Origin: Polytrichum commune
Lineage: Eukaryota; Streptophyta; Polytrichopsida; Polytrichales; Polytrichaceae
NCBI GenBank assembly: GCA_950295325.1
Contig: OX485803.1
Span: forward strand, 57,739,554-57,803,553
Direction of reading: 5' to 3'
DNA: 64,000 nucleotides
Made by a program: the position numbers and the translations under genes. Shown piece after piece: positions 5,480-59,577 of the stretch. How positions within the stretch are numbered: position 1 is the first letter of the stretch; each line of letters begins with the position of its first letter. The notes below the pieces were generated by a model. It worked only from the letters and a program-made list of their open reading frames with translations. It was not told the DNA's origin and searched no databases.

Positions 5480-5552
5480 TTGACAATAGGAGGGCTCTAT
5501 AGCATAATACATTATATTGTAGCAACATTATTGCTTTGCTTATCTACATACC

Positions 5553-5575: not shown

Positions 5576-5604
5576 CACCCATTCTAATCGTCTTGCTCGA
5601 TACT

Positions 5605-37717: not shown

Positions 37718-37739
37718 ATATTAAACATTATGGGACTTT
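37718..37739 (+). repeat. Left terminal inverted repeat of giant element
   Basis: 22 bp identical to the reverse complement of 59556-59577. After it the left end continues with TTGGGACTTCTGGG, similar but not identical to the right end. Confidence 0.85.
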
Positions 37740-37771
37740 AGGTTGATTTTGGGACTTCTGGGATGTATGTG

Positions 37772-37823
37772 GGGAACTCATGGGGAACTCATTGGGAACT
37801 CATTGGGAACTCATTGGGAACTC
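37772..37823 (+). repeat. Left subterminal GGGAACTC array, 11-bp period
   Basis: GGGAACTC starts at 37772, 37783, 37794, 37805 and 37816, exactly 11 bp apart, roughly one DNA turn. The motif GGGAAC is also the repeated unit inside the right end in inverted orientation. Such subterminal repeats are typically transposase-binding sites; here that is inference. Confidence 0.8.
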
Positions 37824-38014
37824 GTGGACACTTTGGATGGACCTGCCCATGCGAGACAAATACTCTTTGCTTCCAATGGGCTTTTGCATAGACTGTCACA
37901 CAACAGGAGGTTTGCACCCACAATCCTCTTCATTGAAACACCAATTCTATGCTAGGAGGCGTCCACTCGATTGAATATTGTGCTATAAATGCCTGTAACA
38001 TGCCATAACTTAAA

Positions 38015-39003
38015 TTACTCTACATTTGTGCCTTGGCTTTCGCAAATTGTGGAGTCCTGTTTGGCCATGGACTCAAAGATGTTTGGCAAGTGAGGTTTGA
38101 TTTCCCGAGATTGCTCCCATGTAACTTTCTCCATGTAAGCCAAGTCCGGTATTTTGCTCCCAAGATAGGCTTTTTGCTGAGAGTCAAAGCCAATGTGTTC
38201 TGCCGCTAACACCAACATACAAAGGCGGTGTATGCGATCGCCGAGCAAAAGAGTGCCCGTATATCTCTGTAGAGCAGTTGTCATGGTCCTCTGTAGTCCC
38301 ATAAACTCGCGCGTTACGTCATGGATCTGCGATGCTAAGTAGTAAAACTCGTAATCAACGTTACGCTCCCCCATTGTGGGTTCCACTGGGTCTCCTTCAT
38401 CATTCTGTGGATCGGCAATATGACAGGCTTCCAACAATGGTGTGATTGGGAGGTTCTCATCCGTGATGTCATAGACATGGTTCAACATGTCTTCTGAATC
38501 ACGGCGGAGTAAGTCATCTAAATGGGGCTCGATTGCTTGCGTAGCTTCCCACATATCGTTCTTATTAAGTGCAACTCTGGGAGACGTTGTTGGAGTGCCT
38601 CCACTTGTGGGATGGTGAGCCCTATATCGGCACTGTATACCACCAATCTCCCAAGCATGTGTGCATCCATTCCAACCAAGCGGCATCCTTTATATCTATC
38701 TAAAGCAGTGGTCATAAATGATTGTAGTTGCATGAACCGTTCCATGCACACATCAATATCTGAAGCTAAGTTGTTAAACTCGTCGTCCATACTCCTCCTT
38801 TCCATTGGGAGGCCTAACGGGCGTTCCAGTTCAGTTGTTTGCATTCTCGCAATGACCTCCCCGAACCCAGTTGGCTGGGGAGCTGGGGGGGGAATTGGCC
38901 GGGTTGGGAGGGGCATCCTGACACGGCATTGAATAGTACGAACAAGTGTGAATAACGCTTCAACATGTGAGGTACAGATACCTATAACCAAAAACTTAAG
39001 CAT
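38015..39003 (-). pseudogene. Element cargo: protein with duplicated helical domain
   Basis: Two consecutive blocks of about 75 residues are alike. Block one (38518-39003 frame) has DEFNNLASDIDVCMERFMQL, FMTTALDRYKG and YSADIG. Block two (38015-38686 frame) has YEFYYLASQIHDVTREFMGL, TMTTALQRYTG and AAEHIG. Both end in a LPEL/IPDL helix, and both are mainly helical. The blocks lie in different frames; judged from the pattern of block two, the natural reading switches near 38577, so there is a single-base indel. A Pro-rich segment precedes block one. No family recognised. It is the most distal gene on the minus strand of the element and could be a separate transcript. Confidence 0.5.
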
Positions 39004-39772
39004 TTCAGCATAGCATATCTTGGAATATCAAGGAGGAGTTATTTTTTGTGTGTAGGAAAATAAGGTTCATGAATAATGACCCTTTTTTCAAAATTGATTG
39101 TGTAAAATTTCTTTGTGCGAAAGTCGGTCAGAGCCCATAACCAACACATGTCTTCACACATGACCGACAATATCTATGGGAAACAACTTCCCCTCCACAG
39201 TCATATTGTCCTCGCGTTTTATATATATTCATAACGACTTCTAGTAAAGCCATGCGCGTTTATGAGCTACTCTACTTGTCGGTGATGGGATCGTTATCGG
39301 TTATAGGGTGTCTATACCTTAAGGGCGGATTTACATGGTGCACACATGGGTTGTTCCTCTGGGAGTGTGCATTCAAGACAAAGGCGCCCTACGCGTTGTG
39401 TCCAGTCACAGAAGAGTTTGGGCAGGACAAATAGGTTACATGAAGGGGCAACTTCCCATGAAGCAGTTATGCAAGACAGAACGAAAACATTCACATGGAG
39501 CTTCCGCCGTATCGTTTATGCACTACATGTTCCACCCATACATGGGGGAGTGTTCGATGATGGATTTACGAAGGACAAGCAAGAACCATACATTGGGTGC
39601 AAACAAGCATGTGGATATGGTAAGCAAAATGAGAGCATGGTTGACATGTGAACCGACTTGATATAAGACAATGCGTTGGGTATTGGGAGTGTCTGGCCAC
39701 TTTTATATATTGAGTGTTGCACTAAATATTGTGTGCACATATGAATGCCCGCACAATTGGTCACGGGATTGT

Positions 39773-40246
39773 TTAACTTCTAGCATATTTAGGGTACAGA
39801 CAAATCATCTGTCCATCACATTGATTGTGGTGTTTTGGGCCTTCCAAGGGGAGGCTAACCGTTTCCGGACCGTGCTCTGTGTGTGTCGCGAGGTCAGCCA
39901 ACCCCGCATGCAATAGATTGACGCCTCTTGAATTAGGACCTCTTGACTCAATAAGCTCTATTTGATGCTCGCGGGTGGAAGGTGGTCCCAATGGTTTCAT
40001 ATTGAAGTCAGCACTTTGCGCGTTCAAAAGAATCGTTGGCACTGTGGTCGTGATAGGTTGTGGGTCATAAGTTTTACCAATGCTCGCCAATCCCGCACGT
40101 AACATGTGAACACCCCTTGAGTTAGGGCCTCTTGATTCAATGAGGGAGATTTGGTGGTCGCGTGTAGAGATAGAGCGCAGGACGGGCAATGTTTCACAAG
40201 GGGATGCACAATCTTCCACTGCGGGTTCCATATTGAGATCAACACC
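39773..40246 (-). CDS. Element cargo: exon with tandem repeat and DLNxxP motif
   Basis: An acceptor (GTGCAG) at 40247-40249 starts an exon reading GVDLNMEP. A block with STRDHQISLIESRGPNSRGV and HMLRAGLA is repeated about 65 residues later as STREHQIELIESRGPNSRGV and NLLHAGLA, each preceded by DLNMEP or DFNMKP. The near-identity of ESRGPNSRGV in both copies points to a recent duplication or constraint. DLNxxP is one form of the EAR motif that recruits TOPLESS co-repressors in plants; whether it works so here is unknown. The open frame runs to a stop at 39773, but the true exon end may be earlier. It may be a downstream exon of the FCP1-like gene. Confidence 0.45.
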   Translation of the reverse strand, partial: GVDLNMEPAVEDCASPCETLPVLRSISTRDHQISLIESRGPNSRGVHMLRAGLASIGKTYDPQPITTTVPTILLNAQSADFNMKPLGPPSTREHQIELIESRGPNSRGVNLLHAGLADLATHTEHGPETVSLPLEGPKHHNQCDGQMICLYPKYARS

Positions 40247-40289
40247 CTGCACGGTGACAAAGTGACACGCATTTATTTGGCTTACTAAT

Positions 40290-40400
40290 TTACATACACT
40301 CGTGCATACATATACACTCATACACTCATAGACACATATACACCCATACACATATACACCCATACACATATACACATATACACCCATACATATATATGTT
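40290..40400. repeat. TACACA/CCCATA microsatellite
   Basis: Simple repeat of ATACACCCATACACAT and ACACTCAT units inside the giant element, in the presumed intron before the exon starting at 40246. It generates a spurious Met/Tyr/Val/Cys-rich frame. Confidence 0.8.
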
Positions 40401-40838
40401 TGCAACTTATCATAACTCGCATATGCGGTAGCAACTGAACCAAAATTGCGTACACATGCACGTTCAAGCGAGTCTGGATTTATACAGATTCAAGTATACT
40501 TATGCTAATGACCCTGAATTGGTAATGAAATGTGTGTTTGATATTACAATAACCTTTACACAATAAGGTTGTCAAAACAATAAATGACATTATAATAATA
40601 AATGACACAATAATAAATTACTAGAGTTGATCCATTGCACATGGTGCAAGTTGTTCTTCACTGGTGAAACCTCCATTGGGTTGTGCGACTCTGAAACTTG
40701 TTTCGCCTCTATTGGACCGCGTGAGAACCCCGAAGTGGGGCACGCAAAAGCTGATGGCGTGGAACTGAATGGTGTGTACCCAGCAGGAGGAAGCTGAAGA
40801 TACCATAAAATACAATGTTACTAGACATACAATCCTAC

Positions 40839-41651
40839 TTATTTCTTTGCTACTTCTATTCGATCGATTTGCAACTTTTCTACAATTTCCGAGTCGGTTT
40901 CTTCAAGCCCGTTGGATTTCAAAACTGCCACCTTGATTGCATCGTTATGCCGTACATGTTGTTGCCCAAACCTACGGCTGACCATAAATTCGCGTGCGTC
41001 GGACATTGGTGAGTAGAACAATGACTGAAAGTAAGGAAGGAGGACCTTTGTCATGTCTGCGTCTTGCACCCGATTGGATGTGAATGGGTTGGGAAAGATA
41101 CCACACTCGTCCGGATTGCAAACAGATTTGTAAGGGCAATCGTCTACTAGAATGGTGTTGGAGGGTGCAGCTGTGATCCTTCCATAATCGAAGGATATAG
41201 GCGGCCACCAAAACTTGTTGAGTAAACTTTTCAAAAACAAAGGAGCTTCTGGCTTCAAAGGGTTCATGACGACATTGTTCCACATGTCCTTGAACAAGGT
41301 GCAATCCTCTTGGCCAAGTACTAATGCGGGTTTTGGGCCCCCGGCAAATAGATACTCCACCACAAGGTCTACAGTGGATTTTTTCATGGATGACCATATG
41401 CAAACATGGAACATGGAGGACATCCGCAACCAAAACACCTTGTATCCCAGTCTAGGTAGGACAACCTTGGGCCCTACCAAGGCCGGAGGTTTGTCCGGTG
41501 CTTTATCGTAAGTTATCCAAGTGGGCACAGTCACCATACCCGGGTTACGTCGGGAACAATGGCAAAATATGCCGTTTAAATCGAACACCACAATGAACCT
41601 TCGACTGGGTGTAGCAGCAGGCGCCTGCCGACATGAACCCACTGTGAGCTT
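40839..41651 (-). CDS. Element cargo: FCP1/NIF-like HAD phosphatase domain
   Basis: One exon from a CAG acceptor (exon starts at 41651) to a stop at 40839. It carries the three landmarks of the FCP1/SCP (NLI-interacting factor) branch of HAD phosphatases: FIVVFDLNGIFCH (motif I, nucleophile Asp at about residue 21 of the frame from 41642), VFWLRMSSMFHVCIWSSMKK (motif II, IWS), and ILVDDCPYKSVCNP (motif III, paired Asp near 167-168). GQEDCTLF corresponds to the segment between motifs. Motif I is DLNGI where classical FCP1 has DxDxT, so the acid/base Asp is Asn; this variant also occurs in some plant NIF-like proteins as I recall. Phosphatase activity is therefore uncertain. The exon has no internal stop, unlike its upstream neighbours. 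The gene start lies in upstream exons. Confidence 0.75.
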   Translation of the reverse strand, partial: KLTVGSCRQAPAATPSRRFIVVFDLNGIFCHCSRRNPGMVTVPTWITYDKAPDKPPALVGPKVVLPRLGYKVFWLRMSSMFHVCIWSSMKKSTVDLVVEYLFAGGPKPALVLGQEDCTLFKDMWNNVVMNPLKPEAPLFLKSLLNKFWWPPISFDYGRITAAPSNTILVDDCPYKSVCNPDECGIFPNPFTSNRVQDADMTKVLLPYFQSLFYSPMSDAREFMVSRRFGQQHVRHNDAIKVAVLKSNGLEETDSEIVEKLQIDRIEVAKK

Positions 41652-41711
41652 CTGACATGTGCTACATATAAATTAAACATAGAATGACCTCGCAAACCTA
41701 GGCATGATGGA

Positions 41712-42029
41712 CTAGACCATTAAGTAGTTCATTGTGTAGTCCTCCAAACCACGTGTGGTATGGGCGAACTCGAACGACAGGGAGAAATGGGCCACGATCA
41801 ATACCTCGTACTGTATTGGATTGAATTCCCATCGCTCAGAGTACCCTAGGGAAGGATCTTCGGGATACTTAGACATTAGTCTTTTAGCACACGCGATTCC
41901 CATCTCCCTTGTGAAAACTTGGCAAGGTCTATTGATCTTTGGGTATGTGTCATCGTAAACAAATAGCTTATCATAGACGACGTCTTTTGGTAGAGGCGCA
42001 TCCAAAGGCGCTATCGAATGTTGTGGAGC
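41712..42029 (-). CDS. Element cargo: exon of unknown function before FCP1 exon
   Basis: Starts after a clean acceptor (GGGTTCAG) with APQHSIAPLDAPLPKDVVYD and contains RPCQVFTREMGIACAKRLMS, then WEFNPIQYEVLIV. Phase 0 entry. The frame reaches TAG at 41712; the real donor may lie shortly before it. It sits directly upstream of the FCP1-like exon and downstream of 42146-42811, so it is probably an internal exon of one long minus-strand gene. No family recognised. Confidence 0.45.
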   Translation of the reverse strand, partial: APQHSIAPLDAPLPKDVVYDKLFVYDDTYPKINRPCQVFTREMGIACAKRLMSKYPEDPSLGYSERWEFNPIQYEVLIVAHFSLSFEFAHTTRGLEDYTMNYLMV

Positions 42030-42145
42030 CTGAACCCAAAACTACGCGAATTTAAATAAATGGGGAGGTGAAAAGGTCGAAATACACATATGTCAATCGA
42101 AACTAACATGCCTTTTAACGAATGCATTAGATGGAATAAACTTAC

Positions 42146-45100
42146 TTTGACATGTGAAGGCACCACTTTTAGAAGCTCGGCACGCCGTCTCTGATCGTCT
42201 TGGTTGTTGTGCGTCGTCCGAAAATCTTGGCAACTAACGTTGTTGAATACTGGATGGGGAGCCTTCTCGCCTTATGGCCAACGTGTCAAATACCTCCTAA
42301 CTGCTTGTGGAGCATTTATGGTGGCTTCTGGATTCGACGAGTCCAATGGGATAACATTGACAACACTCGTCGATGCCGTCGCATACGACTGTGGCTTTGT
42401 TTGAGGGCATTCCACGGCTCGAGTTGAAGCCTCTTCGTTGGCAACATCATCATCCACACCTTGCGGCGATAGCTCGACAATCTCCAAAGGTGAGGGCTCA
42501 AGTGGAGGCTGCGCAGAATGTGGCACTTGGATAACTTCTTGAATGATGTCACTAATTGTAGAATTTGCCACTTGTTTGATGCCAGTCGGCGAGAGTGCCA
42601 TACGCGGCGATGGAACCTGAGCTTGCACATGTTCTGGCGGTGAAGGGGCCGTGGGTGGAGCGCGGGTGACCACCGCTGCATCCGAAGTGTGTATGGGAAC
42701 CACAATATGCAAGGGGTTGATGTGCTCGTCGTCGATTGGGGTAAGTGACGTTTGAATAGACAAAATTGCAGTGTGTGATGCATCCACTCGTTCTGGGTTG
42801 TGCAGGCAAGCCTGTGAATTGCAAGACATCATTAAGGACAATTGAATGCAAACTAGAAAGTACATGTGCTAGACAAAAGAATCCACTTTATTTATAATAA
42901 ATGGTCGAACATATTGCATCTCCTCCCCACAAAGGAGGAGTTCCGGGTAATCAACACCCCTAACTCTATTTATTCTACTTGTCCTAGTCCATTTTTAGCT
43001 TCAAGATGCCGTGCCATCACCGACCTGGATCAAACATCCAGATGGAGATTCAGTCACTTAAACAGAAAAACTTGCATACTGAAATGTTCACGGGGATCGA
43101 ATATTTACACTGACCTCGGCCTTGTCGGAGGTGTCCATGGTTGTCGGTGCTGCATCCACGCAGGAGACATCCACTGCTTGCACGCCAATTGGGAGCGATG
43201 CGCCCACCTGATCGTTCACCCTTTCGGGCTCGGCTGCACCGACTGCAACATCCACTGTGGGTGTTGGTGTCGGCACTTGCTGAGGGGGGGTATTTTTTGC
43301 CAGGCCCAACGCTTCTTGGAGCAAGCCCGACAGCATGTTGGGCAGTGTGCTTCTCAAGATCCCCACAATCTTGTCTTCCAATACAGACTCCGCTATCACA
43401 GGCTCTGGAACCCGAGAACTATGTCTTTTCGTATGCCGGTCCTTGTGCTTGCCTCGCTTGGAGGCCTTGGATTTTGGGGCACTGGGCGGTGGCAGTTCTT
43501 CTTCGCTCTCAGACACAATTGACGCCGTGGAAGGCCGGGAGGTGGTTGCCACTTCGGGTGTGAGCTCAGCCGCATCACCTTCGGCCTCCTCTTGAACACG
43601 AGCCTGCTCATGTTCTCCTTGAGCCACCTCTCATTCTTCTTGTGCTCCCTCGCAAGCCCCTTCTTGTGCGTCGTCAAGGCCCCCCTCGAGCTCCCCCTGG
43701 AGCGTTCCCTCAAACTCCTCCTCACGGTCCGAGTACTCGGCATCTTGCTCTTCATTGGCATCTCCCTCGTGATCCTCGTCGCGATACTGGTCTTCGGCCG
43801 GGTCACCTTCCGCTAGAGAGGTGACATGCTTGTCCTCTTCAAATTCCAGGACCCTGCCGCGCATAGGTGAAGCCGCAGACTGTGGTTGTGGCGATTGTGT
43901 GTGAATGGATTCGCATTCATCCGATTGCGTATCCATATGGGCGCTTTCCCCTCTACTGGAGGCCTCCTCTGTATCCTGTTCACTAGGCGCCTCTTTGTCA
44001 TCATCGTCATATTCGGGCTCCTCATACTCGCCCTCGGATTCGTCTCTATCAACGTCCATGGTGTCGATGTCCAAACCGGGTGACGGATCTCGCGAGACAT
44101 CCTCCAGCAACAGTGCAGGGGGTGCTTCTTGCTGAGGTTGAGGGTGGTCATCTCTGTCACCTGCAGCTTCATGGTCTTCTTGGTCATCTTGAAAGTCCAC
44201 AGCCCGAAGTCGCCGAACGTGATCTATCTTCTCAGGAAGCGAGTGCATGAAACTAGAGTCCATGCACGAGAACACATGCTGTTCGTTCATCTGCATACAT
44301 GAACAATATCATAATAGATAAACAAGCCTGCGAATAAAAGCAAGGTTGCTGATGTTGTATGGACTCACCAATGCGGCAACAATAGGCTTCAATCCGCCGA
44401 ATAGATTTATCATAACTCCTCCCAAGCTTCCAAGGTTGCTGAGAAACGAGTTGTAAACCTCCATTCGCAACTCGCCTCTGTTCGCTTCGTATGAAAGCTC
44501 CGACCACTCCTTCGGGTTCACATTGTAACGCCGAGTTACAGGCGCTATCATGGGACATTGAAACTACTTGTGGCGCGGGAGGATACTTCGGCAAGTGAGG
44601 AAGTCCACATAAAAAGAGGGGTAGTTCTCAGCCAATCTACTTCCTTGTTGAAGGTTTGATCCTCAGCGTGACAAGGTAGATAAACTGACGGAACGTTCAG
44701 AAACGTCCCCGGGTGCTTGCGAATCAAGGTGGAGATGAACTCTTCAGCCGCGGGGTGGTTGCGCAAATCGGACACAATCATCCAAGCGGGAATTTTCTTG
44801 AGGCCCGGGACCCAAACCGGGTCCGCAACATACTTCACCAAAGACTCGACCACCGAAGATGACACTGGCTGATCGACACACCCCGAGATGAATCTAAAGT
44901 CGATGAAGCCCCCTGTAATGGTGAACTTCGAGAGCCAATCAGTGTCGACCTTGTCCTAGTTAGGGATCACCAACTTCCGCTTCAGAGGATTATAATCTAC
45001 ATATCTAGTGATCACTTGTCCTTGACTCTCTTCTACCGGTGTTTGCAGCCACTCTTGCAACAAACGCAAACATGCCGGGGTAGGGTCCAGTTTCTTGTAG

Positions 45101-45756
45101 TTCGGCAAACGCTTCTTATTTAGCCAACCATCACCTGCAACCTGATAAAGCTTCACCCATTTGGCCTTCGTGATGCCATGGTCCCTCTTAAATTTGTCCC
45201 AAACAGATCTATTAAGGCATTCATTGTCCTCCGAGTCCTTTCTCCAAATGCCAAGATCGTTTGGGTCGTGTGCTGACAACTCTTGCAGAAGAATATTCTT
45301 TCACTTCCTAAAATTACACCACGACTTCAAGGTCGTGACATCATGGTTATTCGTGGCTTGGAGAGAGACTCTAGGAACCTCTTCGCCAGGCCTCACCTCG
45401 AGAATACGTCTCGCACACAGAAGATAGTCGGGCCGTGTTAGGCCTGTCATCACCCTGAAAGTTTCCCTGGTCAATGGCTTACAAACATACGGCTTCTCCT
45501 CGAATGGTGTTGCCGATTTTTTCTTCTCGTGGCGGGCTCGTTGTTTCTGCTGCGCGTCCAGGTATTCTTCTAAGTAGGTGGAGCCTAGTTTGTCCGGGTT
45601 AATAAGGGTCCCTTTCTCGTGACCTTGAAATACCTTCTTCCACATCCTCGAGGTCTCATCATTTGCCATGATGAGTGCCAACTCGGCATTAAGGTCGTTG
45701 TGGATGATCCCTCTAGCAATGGCGGTAAATGAAGCCTCCATGCTTGTCGTGAAATT
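42146..45756 (-). pseudogene. Element cargo: middle of the long minus-strand gene, decayed
   Basis: Three exons with GT-AG borders: 44369-45756, 43115-44290 and 42146-42811. The first, entered in phase 0 from the ParB-like exon, has helical sequence of no known family (NPDKLGSTYLEEYLDAQQKQ, IPAWMIVSDLRNHPAAEEFI). The second is very acidic (EYEEPEYDDDDKE) with a basic stretch KRGKHKDRHTKRHSS that could be a nuclear signal. The third is Pro/Ser/Thr-rich. The reading frame continues across in-frame stops at 45301-45303 (TGA), 44956-44958 (TAG), 44564-44566 (TAG), 43631-43633 (TGA) and 42272-42274 (TAA), and a frameshift near 44640. All could be single C-to-T or G-to-A changes. The protein is therefore broken here. 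Confidence 0.6.
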
Positions 45757-45817
45757 CTGCAATGGAAAAGTGTTAGAACACAAGTTGAAGTAACTTTGAA
45801 TGGAGGATAGAGGCGAG

Positions 45818-46087
45818 GGAACTTCCTCTCGGCCGAGAAGAAGTTCCATCAATCCTCCCATCCCTCAATCAAGGATCAAGGGCTTGAGGGAGTTGAGGGA
45901 ACTTCCTCTCGGCCGAGAGGAAGTTCCATCAATCCTCTCATCTCTCAATCAAGGATGAAGGGCTTGAGGGACTTAAGGGAACTTCCTCTCGGCCGAGAGG
46001 AAGTTCCATCAATCCTCCCATCCCTCAATCAAGGATGAAGGGCTTGAGGGAGGTGAGGGAACTTCCTCTCGGCCGAGAGGAAGTTCC
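45818..46087. repeat. Palindrome array A: four 80-bp units in an intron
   Basis: Four copies of a 30-bp palindrome (core TTCCTCTCGGCCGAGAGGAA, flanked by GGAAC/GTTCC) start at 45818, 45898, 45978 and 46058, exactly 80 bp apart. The first has one mismatch. The units also share CAATCAAGGATGAAGGGCTT. The array fills most of the 440-bp intron 45757-46196. Confidence 0.95.
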
Positions 46088-46130
46088 CTCACCTCCCTCA
46101 AGCCCTTCATCCTTGATTGAGGGATGGGAG
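46015..46130. repeat. Perfect 116-bp palindrome
   Basis: The last unit of array A is extended: bases 46015-46072 and 46073-46130 are exact reverse complements with no spacer. The same peptide can be read from both strands here, an independent check of the symmetry. Perfect palindromes this long are usually unstable in replication or cloning. Confidence 0.95.
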
Positions 46131-46196
46131 AGTGAAGTCTGCATGTGGGAGTGCAAAAATAAAAGTTGGAATGGGAGTGGATATATGAAAACTTAC

Positions 46197-48359
46197 TCTC
46201 CATGCCTCCTTCATTTTGGGGTCTATAGTTGTCCCCACAACGTTGATCCGTTGTTTTGAGGGCCTCCCCAGTTTCACCCACACCCTACGACAGTACATAA
46301 TCTGTGTTGTCCAAGTAGGAGTGAACTTGTTGAAAGAATTAGAGTTGTTTAGAATATAGGAGAGACGAACTGTCATGCTTGGATCATTGGTCCAAACAAT
46401 CGTACAAGGCCAAATCTTCAATTTATCCTTCAGTGCTTGATCTGTATCCTTGTGCCCTATAATCTGCCTTGATGCAGCCACGCTGTGTTGACCGTTGATG
46501 ATCACAAAATTGCCGTCCTTGATGTCGTCCCAGGTCATTCCTTCTCTCCATGTCTCACCCTTATTGAGTTTCGGCATGAGACATAGATTGTGATGGGGCC
46601 AAGCTGGTGGGGTCTGTATAAGGTAGTTCTTCATGAGAGCTACTCCGGCATCATCCAATGGGCGAGTAACCTGATACGACTTTGCGCTCAACATCTTCTT
46701 TATGTGGACATAAAAAACTTTCTCGATGCCGAAAGGATATAGGTGTCCAAATAATTGGACGAATTTCTTGCGGTCCGCTGCAGCTTCCTCGAGACTTGGT
46801 TCCTCGCCATGCCCGATGACTCTGCCCCTCTCTGTTGCGGTGAGCACTAGTGGAGTTTCTTCCGATGCATCCGCAGCCTTCGCCTTCTTGGGTTTTGTCT
46901 TCCGCTCCTCATCAGTAGTCATCTTTGAGGCCGGAGGTTTCCTTGCACCTGATGTCTCTTGGGGATGGCTCTGCATAATTGGCGTCGCGTTTGTAGGCGT
47001 CGCCAAAGGAATGAGTTCACTAGAAGCCTTCTTGGGCTTCTTTGCCACTTTTCTTGTTCCTTCAACATCTTGATCGCCGGGTTTCTGCTTCTTGTGTTTC
47101 TTCTTCTTACTCCCCTCATCATCAGTCCTAGATTTCAGAAGTGTCTCAGCTTGTTTCTTCTTTTGCTTCCTCAGAGCCTCCCTTTCGTTCGCCTCTCTCG
47201 AATTGATATCACCTATTTCTTCAAGAAGGAAGTTAATTGCCTTCTTCGATACACCAGAGACCATCACTCTCTCCATCTCTTCTTTATCCGCAGGAGGAAG
47301 CATTTCGATTGATTGGGTAAATGGCTCCAGGTGAAATCTATGCCTTTTGCAGTCGATGGACAAAGTGCGTTCTTCGAGTCCTTCGAGCACCGATACATTA
47401 AGCTGGTCGCGATCGTTGACCAATGCCAGGGTTATTGCGTTTCCTGGGTTTGGAATCCAACTTTTTTCTATCATGTATGCGAAGGTTAGTTTTAACGGAG
47501 ATTCCTTGTCCCTCCTGTGTACCTGAATTGACTAGTGTCTCAAGTGAGTGTCTTTTAATTTCCAATAGACACCCTTTTGCCCTATTTCCATTGTCCCAAC
47601 AAGGTCTGTCCATAGCACTTCCTTGTCCATGTCACCTACAAGACAAATTGAAATGGTTAGTATTTGTGGAATAAAGCAAGCTTGAGAGAGCTTGCACCTT
47701 GAGGCTGTCGCATACGTTGATAGAAGGGGTTTACATAATGTGAGGGATGACTGCAAGGGAAAACTTCCTCTCGGTCGAGAGAAAGTTTTTCCTTTCCTGC
47801 TGTATGTTGATAGGGGTGGATTGAAGGCTAGGGAGTGAGGGTTAGGAGAGGGCTAATAAGATGAGTGTGCAAGGGAAAACTTCCTCTCGGTCGAGAGGAA
47901 GTTTTCCCTTTCCTGCTGTCATGTTGATAGGGGTTTGTCATCGAATACCTAACCCACAACATTCTAAATTGAAGGAAACCAGAAAAAATATAGAAGACAT
48001 GCATCCATTCCTCCATATTGGATTTACTAACATAATATAAACTAATGAAACATTAAACCAGCCCCCACGCTCCCCATGAGTAGGGATTGATTAACAAACA
48101 TCACATATCAGTTGTAAAAAACAATGACACTCTTTTTCTGTATCATTTTTTTGAAGTCGAACTTGTACCTTGCAAAGAGGGTTGAATTCAAGGCAAGGGA
48201 GTCGCAACTCGCGAAACTGTCTGAGATAACGAACCTGCCATTTTCCAACCATAGATCACCAAAATCGATTAATAATGTATGAAGACGTTTGCTTACCGCA
48301 GTAATTTTAGTCGCAAGCTCCATCAAAAACTTCTCTATTAAGCATTCACTACAGCACAT
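46197..48359 (-). pseudogene. Element cargo: ParB/sulfiredoxin-like domain protein (5' part of long gene)
   Basis: Exons 48297-48359 (ATG), 48169-48234 and 46197-47635 on minus. The large exon has an N-terminal part ending LKLTFAYMIEKSWIPNPGNA, then a Lys-rich tract with KKKKHKKQK (likely nuclear signal), then a domain resembling ParB/Srx: RPLDDAGVALMKNYLIQTPP (the helix before), NFVIINGQHSVAASRQIIGH (about residues 318-337 of the frame from 47474; compare the G-E/H-R-R-x-x-A motif of ParB and sulfiredoxin) and IWPCTIVW. In ParB this motif binds CTP and closes the clamp; in sulfiredoxin it binds ATP. The change from HR to HS leaves chemistry open. An in-frame TAG at 47532-47534 interrupts the exon, and the join of the 48169 and 47635 ends is out of phase, so this copy is damaged or my small exons are wrong. 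Confidence 0.55.
47758..47910. repeat. Palindrome group B: two copies in an intron
   Basis: Copies near 47758-47792 and at 47871-47910. The second is a 40-bp palindrome with 19-bp arms and a two-base centre (CTCTCG-GT-CGAGAG). Both lie in the intron between the 48169 and 47635 exon ends of the ParB-like gene. Confidence 0.85.
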
Positions 48360-48586: not shown

Positions 48587-48974
48587 AGGGAAAACTTCCT
48601 CTCGAGCGAGAGGAAGTTTTCCCTCTTCTCAAGTGTGAGTTTCAGGGTTGGGGGCTCTTAAAATGAGAGCCCAGGGAGAACTTCCTCTCGAGCGAGAGGA
48701 AGTTTTCCCTCTTGTCAAGTGTGAGTTTGAGGGTGGGGGGGCTTTTAAAATGAGAGCCCAAGGAAAACTTCCTCTCGAGCGAGAGGAAGTTTTCCCTCTT
48801 GTCAAGTGTGAGTTTGAGGGTGGGGAGGCCTCTTAAAATGAGAGCCTAGGGAAAACTTCCTCTCGAGCGAGAGGAAGTTTTCCCTCTTGTCAAGTGTGAG
48901 TTTCAGGGTGGGGAGGGCTCTTAAAATGCGAACCACCAGGGAGAACTTCCTCTCGCCCGAGAGGAAGTTTTCCC
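48587..48974. repeat. Palindrome array C: five tandem units of 86-90 bp
   Basis: Five palindromes of 34-38 bp start near 48587, 48673, 48760, 48848 and 48938, core TTCCTCTCG-AG-CGAGAGGAA (last copy centre CC), extended by GGGAAAAC/GTTTTCCC. Spacer units share CAAGTGTGAGTTTGAGGGTG and CTTAAAATGAGAGCC. The arms stay paired while spacers drift slightly. Confidence 0.95.
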
Positions 48975-49810
48975 TCCCATCCTGGTGCTTGTGAGGGAGG
49001 GTTTGTGTGAGGGATAAGTTATCCACACTATTTTGTGACACTATTTTGAGTTTTGAAAGATTGACTTGAATCAAGCATTAAATACCGACTGTGAATTCAT
49101 GCATTTGATATCAATGCACATGCCAAAACATAACTGTGTCAATGGCACTATCACACTGCAATGGCTCAATTTCTTGCAATAAGATGTGATTTTTCAATGA
49201 GACTGCATGATTATCACACAAACAATTAACGCAGAAGAAAGACAAACTTTGGAATTAGTTCGGCAACAACAAATACAATATAATCACTGGAGATTGAAAA
49301 GAAGAACATTTGCTTAGTTTAGTTTCTAGGGTTTAGTGTTTACATTGATGAATGCCACTACAACTACAATTGCTTCATTGATATTCAGCTAGATCCACCA
49401 TTATTTGAGGAAGTTGAGGAACAAAACATTGAAGATACTATGTTTACTTATTCCGATATGAGGGAGTAAGATGCATTCAAACGTAACTAAATAACCACCT
49501 TATATCCGAGTTCTCACTGTATCTGCAGAAACTGCATTCTCACTATTGCAAGCAGACTATGCAATCAGCATCGCCTCCCAAAGTTTAGAGAAACCACCTA
49601 CCACCCAAGAAAATCTTTTACTAAGGACAGAGGGTTAGTGTGAAAATAGTCATTGGCACAAAAGAACAGTTGTGGTCAACACATCTCATTGCAGCTTACT
49701 TGAGTTCAGCTGATTCAAAAGATCAAATTAGCAATCACACATCTTTCAATCCTAGACATTCAACCCTGACATTTCAGGAACCAAGCACATTGAACCCAAC
49801 ACAATGAACC

Positions 49811-50711: not shown

Positions 50712-53700
50712 TTATGTAAAGGCGGGCTTCATACCTCAAAAGAGACCCCTGAACATGGATCTTGTCTTACAATTTTATTTTCTTGCGCTTTGGCAATTCC
50801 TCGTCTGTTAAGTGATAGATAAATTATTATGCAAGTACCATGATATAAAGCAGGACAAAAATTGAATGGCTATTACCCTTTTCTTGGGGTCCAGAACTTC
50901 ACACTCCCTTCAAAAAAATTTTGCAACCCTTCAAAAAAGAAGGGGTGATTTTTATTAAACCCTTCAAAATGGAGTATGGCGAAGATTCCTATGGAGTCTC
51001 TTGATTTTAAAGATATTTGGAAGAGGTGCATGAATGATTCATAAAAGATTTCAAACGTGATTTAGATTGTGAGTTTCTTACATCTTTATACTACTGCTTT
51101 CTTGTTGTCCTCGAGATTATCATTGATATCAATATGTTGAGATGTCATTACCGTTTTATTGTACTCAAACATCCATGTTTCATTAATGAAATAGTTCTAT
51201 CTTTTAACCATGTGTGTTCTTTGGTCTTACTTGTTTTATAGTTTTCAACGTCGCTTAAATGATAAACATGGTAATGTGCACTTTCAACAAAAACTTCAAT
51301 ACATACATGAAAGGCAGTTTTTGAGGTAACCCTTCATTTTGAAAGGGAAAATTTAGAGTTACCCTTCCCTATGAAATACAAGCAACCCTTCAAATTATTG
51401 CCTTTATACAACATGAGCAATTCATTCAAATTATCTCAACCCATCTTTATAAAATATCAGTATTTCATTCAAATAAGAAGCATTACTAGTGATGAGTAAA
51501 TCTTCCATATACGTGCCAAACTGTTTCATGAAATTTGACTATAATAAACACACAAAACATATTTGCTTTAAGAACATATGATAAATATGGAAGAGAAGGT
51601 ACTTGAAATACATTAAGTTGTAACACATAGTTTTATTTCGCACACAAAACCTTGACCTTACAACACTTTGATTAGGATGAGATGACCTCCAAGTTCGGCA
51701 CATGTCTCTTTTAAAATCCATGCCATGCAACTCATAATATTTAGGCCAAAGTTCACGTTGTGAGTGGAAAAATCACATCTACAAAATGGTAATGGCAAAA
51801 TGTTGAACCGACTTTGATCATTAATGCATCTATGTGTCTATAATCATGGTGTAATGTTGTAACGTTGTAAATATAGCCTCACCTGTTACATGGAGGCTGT
51901 TACATGGAGGCTGGACTTGGTTTTGAAGAATTCATTAAATCGGATGTGATGCTTGAAATTATGCCTTCTGAACATTGCCTACTGGGAATAGTTTTATATC
52001 AACCCCTCATTTTTTTGAAGACCAAATTAAATTAAATGAGATGAGAAAAAAACTGCCTACACATAGTTTTAAAAATCCACCCGAATAGTTGCCTCCAATT
52101 AGAATTATAAACCACGACTAGTTGCCTGCCATGAAAATTATAAGTCGTTCACAATGTTGAAATTTTATCAAAAATTCCCAAAAGTTGGGTAGTTTGACCT
52201 ATGGTACATGTATCAAAAAAACCAAATAATCAGGTTTTCAATGCAATCATATGCTTCAAAACATATTTGTTTCCTACATATAATTACATTTTTGGATCCT
52301 TTGTTAGAAGGGCCACAAGGGGTTCCTACATTAAAACAAATTGCATCACTCAATATTAGAATAAAACGCATTGTAAGTGATTATAATCAGGGCCACATAA
52401 TACGGGAGTTGCGTACCCGGTAAACGCACGCGATAACGAAATGGAAGGGGGGTGTGATTGCCCCGAGCCCTACTATTATTATAACGGAACACTCAATAAC
52501 AACTAAATAATGTTATGGAGACCATCATCTAGTTCGTTAGTAATGATTCCCATTGCTTGGGTCCACATCCTCTTTTCTTTTTAGTACTTAAAATGTGGCT
52601 GTGCATTAAACATTTTCCCATTTTCATGCATCTCATTTAAATCTTGCCCTTTCCACTATTTCACACATATATTGTGGGCCCATTGTGGTGTTATACTGGA
52701 TTAGATACACTCACATTTCAAGGTCAAAGGCATAAAGGAGGCATACTTAATCATGTCAATTATGAGATCATAGCTACCGAAAAAACTAATAAAGTCAATA
52801 AGTAAGTGAGCTAAGTTAAGCATTTCTTATATGGACATTTTTTACCTCTGCACCCACTTATCGTTGGATATGAAACAAGTGGTTACCTTATCCAAGTCAT
52901 GATATAGCCATTTCTTAATCATTTTTGGAGACCATATTATGATCTTGACCGTTGTCCCTATTTTAGATCATAGTACTCTCAAGTCTTTTTCCGAGTGGAT
53001 CATAAAGTTGATATCAGCCGCTATCTCGTAGACGCCCTTGTGCTTTATTACTCCACGCAATTAGCCTTTTTGACAACATGTACCTCTAGTCCCATCGCGA
53101 GCTTTTTGGCTCCTCATACTTTTTATTATCCATTCTTGGAGCCACATCAAACCACATATCACTGACATATACTAGGTGTTTGATTAAGATAAGAAACCAA
53201 AATTGGACATAGCTATCTTATAATAATACGAAGACTCATTCTAAAACTCCACATACATCTTTGAATTCACAAATACATGCTCATTTTGAGAAAATTAGTG
53301 CGTGCTCTAAGGTGCTAGTAGTGTGATTAAACATTTTGTATGCAAACACATTGCTTGTCAACGAGTAGTGCCAATACTTTAAATGAATAATGATATTATA
53401 AATATTACTCACGATGACCAATGCTTCCTAGGTCTTTTGCTGCCACTAAATCCCTAGCATAAAGAACTTTAGTATCACCTTCACTACACTAAATAAGATA
53501 TTTAGTGTTTGAATATATTTGGGGTTTGCTACCACCACCCTACCTTGCTCAAAACTAATTTTCAATTCTTTAACCATTAGTGTTGGACATAAATGTACCG
53601 CTTTCTTCCCGACTACCACATCCCTTATTATATCCCAATTTCTCCCATATCTTTACTAACACTAATGGTTATTGATATTGAGTGTATTCGTTCTCATTTA

Positions 53701-54500
53701 GTGTATTAAACACTCAACATCCTATTTAGTGTACTTTCCCAACAACACTATTAACCATCCCTCACCAATTTGGGTAATCAATGTAGTGATTGTTTTCATA
53801 ATTTTAACAAACAAAGAACTTAACATGGAAGCATCTACGAAATGGCAATTGACCCCAGAATTTTTGAATTCGCCACAAGTCACCCACTGGATCATGTTTG
53901 CTACAGACAAGTGTGACATGATATTAAGTTACAACAATGTTTAGTTTCACACTCCAAGACGGTTTAGGGTTTAGGGTTTGGGGTTAGCCTTTTTTTCCAC
54001 TCTACCTTTTAATGTCTTAAATTCATATATCAATGGCACATTGTTTTGAGTGCAATTATATAGTGGGCCCATGGATATTAATGATGGTTCATCTTGCCGT
54101 TTTTTTGGTTAAGGGTTTAGGGTAAATTTTTTGACATTTACTAAATATTGCATGCTGCCACCATGGCCCACTAGTCGGTGCGTGGTTCGGTGATTGTGAA
54201 AGAACAAATACCATAATGACACATGTTTATAGGAGATTGGACTACAATGGGATTGAGAGTTCATCACACTAGACCACGATCAACAATCAATGAACACATT
54301 GGAGAGGATATATGTACACTAAATTCGAAATTTTGAGATCAGTGGCATTCAATGGAAGGTAGTGTAGAATGTACATTATATGTACTATCAACTAGAAAGC
54401 ACATCTACTCGCCAAACAATCATTCTCTCTACACCTCCTCAACTGCTGATTCTCCGTACAAGAGAGGATCCCGTCTATTTCAAAACCACCAATCTCCCAT
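50712..54500. other. AT-rich middle of the giant element, no gene seen
   Basis: About 3.8 kb between the two presumed divergent promoters. It holds a copy of the ACACTAAATA/TATTTAGTGT palindrome near 53487, a short telomere-like tract near 53961, and short frames only. It may contain nested insertions. Confidence 0.5.
53961..53986 (+). repeat. Short interstitial telomere-like tract
   Basis: GGTTTAGGGTTTAGGGTTTG, about three units of the plant TTTAGGG repeat. Single units occur elsewhere; too short to be a relic telomere. Confidence 0.7.
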
Positions 54501-54504
54501 CTAC

Positions 54505-54511
54505 TATATAA
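54505..54511 (+). promoter_or_regulatory. TATA box-like TATATAA
   Basis: CTACTATATAAGGCCC on plus is a good TATA box match, with transcription expected near 54540. It could serve the DUF7869 gene, whose first ATG follows a splice acceptor at 55730, or only the open frame at 54637-55029. Unproven. Confidence 0.35.
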
Positions 54512-54760
54512 GGCCCATACCCACAACCGTCTCCGACTCTCACTCTTGAGGCATTTCCATACCTCTCATTGTCGACACTACACGCATTCAGACCCCAACA
54601 CATGCTCTCTTTTACAGGTGCCGGTCCAAGTAGTGTATGTTTTCTGTTGCCGTTGATCCTACGATCAGTTGTCCGTACAACTTCATCCACGTGGCAGCCG
54701 TACAGTTGTACGGCCCAACTGACATAGCCCTGTTTCCCTCTCATATTCACTGGCACCAAG

Positions 54761-54882
54761 TTTCCTCTCGGCCGAGAGGAAAACTGGCACCCTTCACATT
54801 CGCACTAAGTTTTTCTCTCGGCCGAGAGGAAAACTCACACCCTTCACCCTGGCACCAAGTTTCCTCTCGGCCGAGAGGAAAC
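54761..54882. repeat. Palindrome group D: three copies
   Basis: Palindromes at 54761-54782, 54808-54835 (one mismatch) and 54859-54882, core CCTCTCGGCCGAGAGG flanked by GTTT/AAAC. Spacers share GGCACC and CCCTTCAC blocks. They lie upstream of the DUF7869 gene. Confidence 0.95.
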
Positions 54883-55120
54883 CCGACACCCTGTACCCTG
54901 GCACCGAATGAGAGCTCCAATTGGGCCAATTTTTGTTATCAGAACTGGCGACGCGGGATGAACCGAAAGCGGAGTTACGGTGCCAAACTGCGCTCCAATC
55001 TAAATCCAAATGAGAACTTTGAAGACTGAAGTGGAGAATGGTTCCATGTGATTAGCAATTGGACATGGTCCGCTAGTCCCAATCACGCGCCCGCGGGGTG
55101 TAAAGACCATGGAGAGAAGT

Positions 55121-55161
55121 TTCCTCTCGGCCGAGAGGAATCTCCACGGCCGAGAGGAAAT
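55121..55161. repeat. Palindrome group E: one and a half copies
   Basis: TTCCTCTCGGCCGAGAGGAA at 55121-55140, followed by a half copy GGCCGAGAGGAAA at 55148-55160. It lies just after the stop of the small minus gene 55165-55516. Confidence 0.9.
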
Positions 55162-55164
55162 CAT

Positions 55165-55516
55165 TTAATCCATTAATAGGTGTAGGTGTAGCTCATCCTT
55201 TAACATAATGAAGTGTTGTGAAGGGCGGCCACCGGTATTTACATCCTCGAACACATCTTCAATCTACAAGACGGATAAACGCATAATTGTCATAACCCTA
55301 TAATCGGTGCTCTGAATAGGTTCCAATGATACTAACCTCCGCGTATAGCATAGTGTCTAATATCCTTGTATTCAATTGGGCTCCTTTAATTGCTTCTGTC
55401 AATGTCGCAGTGTAATCAGTATTGATAAAGCCCCATTGAATTCCGAAAACAGGCACATAATTTCGTGGGGACCCCTCTATAAATGTTACCCACTTGAACA
55501 ACGAAAGTGTCATCAT
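55165..55516 (-). CDS. Small two-exon gene inside the giant element
   Basis: Exon 1 55337-55516 (ATG ATG start, 60 codons) ends at GAG/GTTAGT. Exon 2 55165-55263 begins after TTGTAG and ends at a stop, giving 92 residues with a phase 0 join. The peptide includes FIEGSPRNYVPVFGIQWGFI, then LTEAIKGAQLNTRIL and FEDVNTGGRPSQHFIMLKDE. No family recognised, no membrane segment. It is divergent to the DUF7869 gene, whose start is about 210 bp away. The open phase and matching splice sites support it, but it is short and could be an exon of something larger. Confidence 0.4.
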
Positions 55517-55729
55517 TATCTTTGTTCCATGATGAAGGCATACTGAAATATGATGTGTATTTGTTATTGTTGATCAATGTTCGCCTAAACTACTGAATGT
55601 CCACGCCCAGTGTTGTGCTTTAATATTTGGGTATGGGTTTCCATATTCTTGTATACTTCTCATGTAATAGAGCTTTATGTAGGCGGCACAATAATATGGT
55701 TAATGAAGTTATGTGTTGTTATCAGGGCA

Positions 55730-58700
55730 ATGGAGCAACCTGAAGTAGAGCATTTGAGCTCCGAGGAGGTCAGTTACTGCCCCACTTTGCAATGTGATGT
55801 AACTTCATATTGTGGTATCTGACACGAGTACGGACAAACATACTTATCTGATAATACGATGCAGGGATCTTCACTATCTGAAGCGGTGTTCACGGAAGAT
55901 GACACTGATGATGGCATAGAGGATATTGATGTAGACTGCAGCGGGCTGAGAAGGGAGGAATGGTTGCATAGTCCTGTGATGCTTGTAAATGTGAGTGGAC
56001 AAAATGTGGCAAAATGAATCTGCTGGAACGTCAATCCAATGGATTGTGTGGAAGACAAATGTCTAGGAATAGACAATGTTGGTGTGCTTATTATGGAGCC
56101 ATTAGAGGGAATGATGGACATGGGATGGATGTTCTCCTTGCGAATATGGCCTCTTGATCGGGTTTTCCAACAGAGGTATACACTTGCATACCACCTCCTA
56201 GTGAGCACACGCAGGTTGCGTGTGCAAAACACGTTGCTAGAAAGACGGAAGAAAGAGGGGAAAAGGGCATATGTAACATCACGCACGACGCCGCAGAACA
56301 GACCGACAAAGAAATCACAAATTCTCAATAATAATAGCATCCACCAACTATTTGCTAGCGTGTGTTGTGATAGGGAGGGCACTAGATATTTTCCCAGGGA
56401 AAAGGCACTTGCGCTACGAACGGAGTTCTACACTTGTTCGCCACGGATGAAACATGCTAAGCAACTCGAAGTCCATGGCCAATTACATGTACTACCTGTA
56501 AGTTCAACGAAGGTCGTTACCTTGAGTGGGCGCAATGTCTACGAAAAGGCATGGAGACACATATTTGCCGTCTCCAAAATGACGTTCTACAGAAACCGGT
56601 CGGAATTCAAGAATGGTATGCGTCCACGCGATCATGGAAACCTAAATAAGAAAAGGAATCGAACATCCACCCAACAAGCTACAGCCACACTTTTGACACT
56701 ACTGGAAGACAAAGCAGATATGATGCCTCACAAGGCTCGCACATTGCCAAATGGTACACGAGTTGTAGAAATGGTCTTGCCTCGCGGAACCAAATGGAAG
56801 AAGTTCTTGGTTACAATCAATGAGGTACGCAATTGGTATAGTCCAATTACCCGCATTAACAGTGGAGATCAAACATTCAATCGAGTTGGGTTTGTGTATA
56901 ATTAATAGACACGAGGGGGCAATTATGAACGTATTTCATACACTTTGGTTCATGGTTCATGTGAAGTATTATTAATGTTATACTAATACTATATGGGCAG
57001 GTGAATGACAAATGCGGAGTGCTCCCAATATCTATTTCAATTCTGAGCAAAATTCGAAATACCTACTTTAAGCACTACATAAAAAAGAGGGTTGGTGACA
57101 ATTTTGCGCGTTGTGGGAAGTGTGATTCGTTGTCCGCAATTATACTTCAACATGTGAAAGGTTCAGCCGCACACACAGGGTTTTCAAAACAATTGGAAAA
57201 ACACCTAGCACAACAAGAATCGGCTCGCAACGCTTACCGATGCATGAGGGTTCTTTCAATTGAGCATCTCCAAAAGGTGTTGACGATTATCCACGACAAA
57301 ATGGACCATGGCAAAACCGCATCGCCTTGCTTTGCTTCCAAGAACAAAGACACCGATATGTTTACAAAGCTACCACTTTCTGTAACAGGCATGATGGCCC
57401 ATGGACATGGAGATGAGAGATATGCCCACTATGCACTGGACATGTACCCTGGAAATTGCAACCATACTGTGGGCTCATTCGCGAGACTTTTACGCGATTT
57501 GGAGGAACCTCTCATATCATCATCCCAACGTCTTTTTCATGGTTCCGGGCGTGCACCTCTGTATTGTGTTGTTCTCAATGGGAGCGAAGTATGTTTGGGA
57601 GGATTACGACCCCCACCCACGGAGCCCACACCTGCAGTTCCTCTTCCACCCATTCTGCATGTTCAGCTTGATAATTGTTGGAAGGACAACAAGTGTAGGT
57701 TTGTAAAGGCATTTTGGTCTATGCTCACGGCGAAAGCAATATTCACGGAGGTACATGTATCTTATCTATTGGTTGGCCACACCCATGATGACATCGATGC
57801 ATCATTTGGAAGGTGGAGTATGGACCTGCGTGAACACGACTATCCCACTATACTCCTTCTTATGAAATCATACATGGACATAGAAAAGGTTCCTATCATT
57901 CCACACATGATAGAGGAACTTCCAGATTGGAGAACATTCGTCAGCGAGCATATCCCAAATGGTAAGGAGAAACTCATTGGCCACACCAAGGCTCAACAGT
58001 TCAAATTCTATGTCCGAGATGATGGTTGGCCAGTTATGCAATACAAAGTGCTAAGCACGCATGGGGAGTGGTTGCCCAAAGACGGTGTGAAGATGTGGAA
58101 ATCAAATATAAAAGGGGAGCCATGTATTCCATCCGGGGACCCCTTTCCTGCACCACCGCGAGGTATGGCCAAGCTGGAGGAGGTTCTTGTGGGATTGCAA
58201 GGGTTCATTGACTATTGGCAATCAATATGTGACCATGACACGACAGGAGCATATATGGGTTCACACATGCATATTTTGCAACATTGGATAGGGGTGAAGG
58301 AAGCATTAGATGCACCCCTCAGAAACGTATACACTGTTGGGCTGCCATTATGCGAGGGATTCTGGCCACGAAGTAGAGTCGAAGCAGATGCACATCCCTT
58401 CTTGCAGAACGGAGAGCTTCGGGAAGAGCACCAACCGGACGACCATTATGTTGGTCCAGCAAACCTTCGTCCTGCAACAGCTTTCCGCATCGCAAAGAAT
58501 GTGCATGAGGGGCATATGCTAATATTGCGTCCCCAAGAACAAGATATAGGTAGACCCATTTGGGTATGCCGGGTTGTGTCTGTACCGAACTTGGCGGTCA
58601 CGGGAGATCATCCACGTCAAATGCTTGTACAGTGGTTCACTCCCACTTCAACCGCGAGGGACCTTTCAAAGAAATGGAATGGTTGGGACTCAAACCCAAA

Positions 58701-58983
58701 CTTCAAGTGGAAACGAGATTTGAAATACTCCGTTTCCGACTGGCAGCCGATCGATTGCATTTTGGCAGCCTGGCCTCTGCCAGCACAGGAAGATGTGGAG
58801 CCATTAAAGGTTACTATCCCAGCAGAGAAAATTGGTTTTGCCAAAGATAATCTTCGACGGTGTTCAACAGCCGAGCGTGGGAACAGGGAGGGTGGGTGGG
58901 ACGACGAGGAGTCTAGTGGGCAACGAGGGGGCCGTGGACATGGAGGTGGTAGACCTAAATCTGGGGGACGCGCATCCCGGTGA
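55730..58983 (+). CDS. DUF7869-type putative transposase of the giant element
   Basis: Exons 55730-55768, 55865-56824 and 57001-58983, all joins phase 0, about 993 codons. Exon 2 holds RNVYEKAWRHIFAVSKMTFY and a HGNLNKKR segment, a helical region usual before the catalytic part. Exon 3 has CGKC (38-41), DKMDHGKT (99-106), LHVQLDNCW (D at 224) and LLVGHTHDDIDASFG (HTHDDID at 260-266), the conserved core of DUF7869 proteins. I read D99 or D102, D224 and D263/D264/D266 as an RNase-H-fold D-D-D/E triad; this is inference. A C-terminal segment with IWVCRVVSV and MLVQWFTP precedes a Gly/Arg-rich tail that could bind nucleic acid. One in-frame TGA lies upstream of the Met at 56039, and could be removed by a short intron (donor GTGAGT near 55993) or bypassed by starting at 56039. 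Otherwise intact. Confidence 0.7.
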
Positions 58984-59362
58984 TCAAAGACACTGGAATT
59001 GAAGGTGATACGGGATTAGATGAGCCAGTGTCAAGACCCTAGTGATCTGCGGTAGGTGATAGGGCAGTACGTTTGGAACCAAACATCTCATTTTTTTGTC
59101 GATACGACCTTAATTGCTATATGTGCAAATTTCAACCAATGTCATATCATCATGCATGGTGTGGTCCCATTAATGTATGGATTTTCAGACCTCAATGTAG
59201 GGACCCTAAACCCTAACTTCCCCGCAATTTCAAACATGTGCGGTGGGACACTGTACGTATGTGCTGTGAAAATTCGTACGCAGGCAACTATTTATGAATA
59301 TCACGAATATCGTGTGTAAGTGGTGTACATTGGCGAACGTTATGGCCCAGCCATGTGCCATG

Positions 59363-59505
59363 GTTCCCATAGAAGTTCCCCAATCTCGTCCATACTCCTC
59401 GTATTGACGTTCCCAATTGAGTGCCCCCCCCCCCTGTTCCTACGTTCCCATACACACGCACATAATCTTTGGCAAGTTCCCATGCACGTTCCCATTCACG
59501 TTCCC
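59363..59505 (-). repeat. Right subterminal GGGAAC cluster
   Basis: GTTCCC on plus (GGGAAC on minus) starts at 59363, 59375, 59409, 59444, 59476, 59488 and 59500; the last three are 12 bp apart. It mirrors the left array at 37772-37823 in inverted orientation. A poly-C run lies at about 59424-59434. Confidence 0.8.
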
Positions 59506-59555
59506 ACATAGAATTTTGGTCAAAATGTACATGTTTTGCAATTTTGGGACTCCCA

Positions 59556-59577
59556 AAAGTCCCATAATGTTTAATAT
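59556..59577 (-). repeat. Right terminal inverted repeat of giant element
   Basis: 22 bp identical to the reverse complement of 37718-37739. Just inside is TTTTGGGA-C-TCCCAAAA, a small palindrome at about 59543-59558. Confidence 0.85.

Follow-up and report, generated by a model that had tools for sequence, protein, structure and literature searches.

Two short inverted repeats lying about 21.9 kb apart in the genome of the moss Polytrichum commune raise the question of whether they bound one very large transposon, and of what the genes and repeats between them could do. They lie in a window of 64,000 nucleotides, the whole stretch of DNA analyzed here (C1:57739554-57803553), for which a sequence-only reading had proposed a giant mobile unit with several cargo genes. 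The segment 37712-59583 is a single transposon copy of a high-copy family, with dozens of copies in this genome. As a whole, we consider it quite probable that this is a giant Sola-type cut-and-paste family with a DUF7869 transposase, a set of passenger genes and a ParB-like protein acting on palindromes that are specific to each sub-family.

Ends of the Element and Target-Site Duplication

The sequence ATATTAAACATTATGGGACTTT forms a 22-bp perfect inverted repeat at 37718-37739 (+) and 59556-59577 (-). With up to three mismatches allowed, it has two matches in the window against 0.01 expected, and none of 100 shuffles reached two; the inverted ends proposed from the sequence are genuine. Their limits had to be moved. 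Comparison of the flanks of sister copies places the real termini 6 bp outward of this repeat on each side, reading AACGCG-ATATTAAAC... on the left and ...GTTTAATAT-GATGTT on the right. These 28-bp termini differ by three mismatches, and the 22-bp repeat is their perfect part. The GGGAAC clusters expected at both ends were also found, with five inward copies within 110 bp of the left end and seven within 221 bp of the right one. No copy in the opposite orientation lies within 300 bp of either end, and the background in the flanks is 0.05 per 300 bp per strand. Inward clusters are present at both ends in all five elements inspected.

Identical 4-bp duplications, varying in sequence, flank each of the 25 elements in which both ends were read. 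They include CATT (window), CCTT, CTCT, TGGT and ATAA, and the pairs were identical in 20 of 20 further elements, while mismatched combinations used as a control for chance agreed in only 6 of 380. These varying duplications rule out TTAA, ATAT and TA, the three target duplications suggested beforehand. The GC content of the element is 0.443 (0.44-0.51 in 2-kb steps, dipping to 0.36-0.41 at 48-54 kb), and that of the flanks is 0.34-0.42, apart from the window's first 2 kb, at 0.46.

Copies in the Host Genome

The host assembly searched comprises 407.8 Mb, of which seven chromosome-scale contigs make up 406.07 Mb. The left end of the window element has 42 matches in it. Of 201 end motifs counted, the 100 listed were used, and the pair counts thus cover about half. 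Among these motifs, 35 adjacent inward pairs lie less than 80 kb apart; 29 hold a DUF7869 gene, 29 a ParB-like gene and 28 both. In all 28, the two genes are divergent, on opposite strands, and an FCP1-like gene lies within the same pair. These figures draw on 67 scored DUF7869 matches (all used; a lower bound, with 2313 first-look candidates), on 64 of 96 ParB-like matches (fragments of the same genes and a distant group near 30% identity being left out) and on 140 FCP1-like matches, 36 of which were typed for the end-pair test.

Six other copies were fetched at length, three of them without a right end inside the 30 kb read. Collinearity with the window element, with insertions and deletions, is seen in three long copies located on C5 and C6; their identity to it is mostly 94-98% away from the palindrome arrays, and 87-92% over some of the arrays. 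A 4.5-kb copy, flanked by its own duplication, retains the right end together with the left part of the element. A 772-bp end pair on C1, which likewise has a duplication of its own, resembles a miniature derivative. Many end pairs span 20-26 kb, and the longest 73 kb. Those exceeding 20-26 kb probably carry nested insertions; among the six copies read, inserts of ~4 and 27 kb were found in two, and of ~1 and 1.6 kb in a third.

The sequence-only reading had proposed a genome search for full-length copies with the same ends and gene order, and the single mobile unit it assumed is borne out by the 28 gene-holding pairs and the three collinear copies. It had also been considered that the two ends come from separate elements, with unrelated host DNA between them. 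No point in support of this was found, and the common gene set, the collinear copies and the matching duplications tell against it, leaving it a negligible probability.

Two further observations concern the distribution of the family. A neighboring element with DUF7869, ParB-like and FCP1-like genes (86%, 69% and 74%, respectively) lies at C1:57709465-57729693, ~10-30 kb before the window. At C2:23.19-23.29 Mb, copies of one sub-family occur on opposite strands with identical scores for the three genes, which suggests a large inverted duplication.

Candidate Transposase and Superfamily Placement

The DUF7869 protein (PF25273 match inside the element, E 9.2e-39) was modeled with an RNase H core, nearest to Mos1 and integrases, and with a candidate DDD triad. 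This predicted fold supports its role as the transposase, as had been proposed. Residues 494-601 of the model form a C-terminal domain resembling BAH, SH3 and MazF folds, which might enable the transposase to read chromatin. For DUF7869, 216 relatives were found, of which 120 were listed and 53 of those aligned. One scan of a viral collection with the DUF7869 exon gave no relative, a PDB sequence search with the exon gave nothing credible, and the term DUF7869 was not found in the open-licence PMC literature searched.

The transposase gene of the window copy has a single in-frame stop, and other copies are broken at different positions. In another sub-family, six copies share one common score for the DUF7869 exon, with no stop in that exon; open-frame copies therefore exist in the genome. 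Their equal scores and intact exon sequences suggest recent activity of that sub-family.

According to excerpts of PMC10741241 and PMC9033089, Sola elements have a DDD transposase and 4-bp duplications, are mostly 2-9 kb long, with some above 15 kb, and occur in Physcomitrella. The window element resembles them in its 4-bp duplications, candidate DDD triad, short inverted repeats and occurrence in a moss, but is larger than most and carries several passenger genes. The DDD transposase on an RNase H fold that marks Sola is found in the DUF7869 model, as a candidate triad. The element fits this superfamily, being placed through its 4-bp duplication and candidate triad, with named Sola elements compared by description only. 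A different superfamily, such as a piggyBac-like TTAA element, KDZ or EnSpm, is improbable. TTAA is present within the inverted repeat, and giant KDZ and EnSpm elements are reported in excerpts of PMC12477816, but the duplications here are 4 bp long and vary, without the TTAA of piggyBac, and the candidate triad is DDD.

Among published elements, Sola1-1_Ec32, a giant Sola-1 of 21.5 kb from the brown alga Ectocarpus, is the nearest relative (excerpts of PMC12477816). It is similar in length and has a ParB-like accessory gene on the strand opposite the transposase. In the same source, transposases of the Ectocarpus giant families are frequently pseudogenized, in agreement with the in-frame stops of the window copy. 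In contrast, the algal accessory protein has a recognized DNA methyltransferase domain, whereas Pfam recognized none here, and the excerpts mention neither palindrome arrays nor an FCP1-like gene for the alga. The Pfam scan covered accessory exon 2 from a sister copy with an open frame, which gave no match and in which an LNLFGG stretch was noted by eye. The family had been called giant and poorly described; this holds in moss, where none was found described in the literature searched, but not for giant Sola-1 elements with a ParB-like gene, which are published for the alga.

Palindrome Arrays

The element contains arrays of palindromes. The core TTCCTCTCG-NN-CGAGAGGAA, with up to three mismatches, has 15 sites in the window, all inside the element and none outside. 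Three sister copies that retain the interior have 16, 9 and 14 sites, and the 4.5-kb copy has none; the four long copies counted in the window family, including the window, thus carry 9-16 sites each. The last site of array a is the middle of a loopless 116-bp inverted repeat (46015-46130), whose 58-nt arms are 100% complementary. A 22.4-kb element of another sub-family, with equal gene order, has arrays at the corresponding three places, with the core TTTCACTCG-AT-CGAGTGAAA.

Eight representative elements, from sub-families A (window) to G, were compared. The core has the form TCCTCTCG..CGAGAGGA (form 1) in A and B, TCCACTCG..CGAGTGGA (form 2) in C, C' and D, and TTCACTCG..CGAGTGAA (form 3) in E, F and G. 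The sub-families differ in this sequence, as a rule in both arms at once. Arrays stand beside the ParB-like gene in 8/8 elements and upstream of DUF7869 in 7/8 (not L044). Genome-wide, two exact palindrome patterns occur 284 and 236 times, and their reversed controls not at all. Among the matches listed, all 50 sites of the first pattern fall inside seven end-bounded elements on C1; for the second pattern, none of the 50 is farther than 2,036 bases from a match to DUF7869 or to the ParB-like gene.

The symmetry was examined in two sets. In an unselected count of 101 sites, anchored on CTCG..CGAG alone with symmetry not required, the five next pairs were all complementary in 78 sites and four of them in 21; the three outermost pairs were complementary in 91, 81 and 84 of 101. 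From the eight elements, 100 sites chosen for near-symmetry gave 45 distinct sequences for covariation tests, in which 92.0% of cells pair (78.6% in shuffles), 85 cells changed on both sides (35.2 in shuffles) and covariation was 0.356 (0.141 shuffled, at most 0.110 with partners slid). Sites within one array are related through tandem duplication, so that the cells are not independent events.

Some results are less clear-cut. The division of forms among sub-families is mixed in places: the C' element also has five form-1 sites, D has four asymmetric mixed ones, and B has one form-2 site. Two covariation measures are flat: neither double-change pairs nor further pair types are clearly more numerous than in shuffles (394 and 63 of 500 as high, respectively). 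Both points lower our confidence in the overall explanation and in the self-identity reading discussed below.

Binding of the palindromes by a host factor, or a function as promoter or enhancer repeats with another role for the ParB-like protein, is considered unlikely, at about one chance in four. The arrays lie upstream of both divergent genes, where promoter elements are expected, and two forms occur together in some elements. A shared host factor is disfavored by the change of both arms between sub-families of one genome, and by the confinement of the listed sites of both patterns to these elements or their vicinity. Hairpins, either as folded RNA or as extruded DNA (small-RNA sources or transposase sites) selected for self-complementarity, are slightly less likely still. 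The very long loopless inverted repeats, of 116 bp here and of 112 bp in L039, would be in agreement with them. However, most sites are loopless with a near-invariant CTCG-CGAG centre, which is better suited to a two-fold symmetric DNA site and disfavors an RNA hairpin as the main reading, and the palindromes are located away from the element ends.

In bacterial ParB-parS systems, the ParB protein is encoded beside palindromic sites. The moss element is similar, as its ParB-like motif protein adjoins palindromic sites, and different, as profiles recognize no ParB domain and the system is that of a eukaryotic transposon. The ParB-like label is based on a GQHS motif, which reads IIDGQHSLEAS in a distant family. 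Profile searches of the ParB-like proteins in Pfam and NCBIfam gave no domain above chance, ParB included; a weak GmrSD_N match (E 0.071) was seen in a distant relative. The structure model of the exon is poor (mean predicted local distance difference test score, pLDDT, 48.6), and a PDB sequence search with the exon gave nothing credible. The protein set contains 33 relatives of this exon.

VANDAL elements are Mutator-like. Those of Arabidopsis, with their anti-silencing VANC proteins, have motif arrays in accessory-gene introns and upstream of the transposase, often in tandem, as seen here (excerpts of PMC5735166 and PMC10398659). The motifs of VANC21 are found upstream of VANA21 and in the introns of VANC21 and VANB21, as tandem repeats whose sequence diverges from one related element to another (excerpts of PMC5735166); motifs differ between related elements in the moss too, apart from the mixed-form cases. 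The Arabidopsis motif, YAGTATTAC/T, is not palindromic, however (PMC5735166), and VANC proteins carry DUF1985 and DUF287 (PMC5735166, PMC10398659), for which Pfam gave no match among the element proteins scanned. VANC21 is the nearest experimental parallel to the palindrome arrays. For the ParB-methyltransferase accessory proteins of Ectocarpus, the authors suggest possible binding to, and modification of, the transposon that encodes them (excerpts of PMC12477816); a protein of this kind would find natural sites in the moss arrays.

In the proposed mechanism, the DUF7869 transposase would attach to the element at its 28-bp ends and inward GGGAAC repeats and integrate it with a 4-bp stagger by DDD cut-and-paste; the duplication is observed, and the binding and chemistry are presumed. 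The long-term passengers are the gene of the ParB-like protein, divergent from the transposase, that of the FCP1-like phosphatase-domain protein, and several smaller ones. The sub-family-specific arrays, situated upstream of the transposase and in both an intron and the 5' region of the ParB-like gene, would be bound by a dimeric protein that the element encodes, for which the ParB-like one is the most likely candidate. The element would thereby be marked, either to be relieved of silencing or to have its transcription controlled. We infer that the palindromes may form a self-recognition system convergent with Arabidopsis VANC. A ParB/parS-like self-identity, in which the dimeric ParB-like protein and its array of 18-26-bp palindromes co-evolve by lineage and related sub-families in the same nucleus each mark mainly their own copies, to evade silencing or to be expressed, is put forward tentatively, at somewhat less than an even chance.

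Accessory Genes and Other Features

The coordinates of all features are given in Table 1. Exons 1-4 appear to form one gene, to judge from strand, order and splice-like borders. Among the enclosed genes proposed earlier, DUF7869, the FCP1-like gene and the repeat-protein open frames stand, and the ParB-like one is left without profile support.

Table 1. Features of the Polytrichum commune element (window positions).
Feature	Positions	Strand	Remarks
Complete transposon	37712-59583	.	21,872 bp; ends and 4-bp duplications; collinear copies elsewhere in genome
Left target-site duplication	37708-37711	+	CATT
Right target-site duplication	59584-59587	+	CATT
Left terminal inverted repeat	37712-37739	+	28 bp (22 perfect)
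Right terminal inverted repeat	59556-59583	-	28 bp (22 perfect)
Left subterminal repeats	37772-37821	+	5 inward GGGAAC
Right subterminal repeats	59363-59505	-	7 inward GGGAAC
Gene, function unassigned	38015-39027	-	Frame interrupted in window copy; open for at least 314 codons in 4/4 other aligned copies
Small repeat protein	39773-40270	-	165-codon frame, open in 7/7 aligned copies including window
FCP1/NIF-like phosphatase-domain gene	40839-41672	-	PF03031; relatives in sub-families
Accessory gene, probable exon 4	42272-42868	-	Open in window and 2/3 other aligned copies; sister sub-family counterpart
Accessory gene, probable exon 3	43088-44308	-	Acidic, low complexity; one in-frame stop; open in 1/2 other aligned copies
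Accessory gene, probable exon 2	44400-45759	-	Two in-frame stops; sister copy has 403-codon open frame
Accessory gene, exon 1, ParB-like	46197-47633	-	GQHS motif; one in-frame stop near 47533
Palindrome array a	45818-46130	.	4 sites; inferred intron between ParB-like exons 1 and 2
Palindrome array b1	47760-47912	.	2 sites upstream of ParB-like gene
Palindrome array b2	48587-48975	.	5 sites within 88-bp tandem repeat
Palindrome array c	54762-55143	.	4 sites upstream of DUF7869 gene
DUF7869 gene, N-terminal exon region	55868-56824	+	One in-frame stop at 56015-56017
DUF7869 exon	57001-58983	+	RNase H core, candidate DDD triad; C-terminal SH3/BAH-like domain

The NIF/FCP1-like domain was identified by a PF03031 match (E 2.9e-9). 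FCP1-type enzymes have DxDx(T/V) at the position where the element protein has FDLNG; VDDxPYK is kept. Its relatives in the sub-families are 58-98% identical to it. Several dozen further FCP1/NIF-like genes, at ~33% identity and mostly with open frames of ~260 codons, occur on all seven chromosome-scale contigs and are probably another young mobile family with similar cargo. A distant ParB-like family (~30% identity; L045-L052, at C2:24368409, 24422437, 24467367 and others) comprises several near-identical copies whose open frames are close to 480 aa, and may be part of another giant element.

The accessory gene of the window copy has several in-frame stops. With these and the stop in the transposase gene, the window copy is a decaying member of its family. 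The ratio of non-synonymous to synonymous polymorphism (pN/pS) among copies is mixed, from 0.29 to 1.45 in ten pieces, and copies decay independently; for these reasons, current selection on each gene is not claimed. Several long inverted repeats with diverged arms (75-84%, 50-108 nt) lie outside the element, at 5333-13335 of the window.

Biological Implications

Both giant Sola-1 elements and accessory genes of the ParB-like kind have already been published (excerpts of PMC12477816). No description of such palindrome arrays, or of this family in a moss, was found among open-licence PMC papers by title and start of abstract, and sub-family-specific palindrome arrays in giant Sola-type elements seem to be new. 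DUF7869, a Pfam domain of unknown function with moss relatives, gains a function-level reading as a putative transposase. The findings suggest a range beyond algae for giant Sola-type elements whose ParB-like accessory gene is divergent. If the palindromes are indeed self-recognition sites, they would represent a second plant system like VANC, independently evolved, and a single genome would offer natural variants of both protein and site, making their specificity directly testable.
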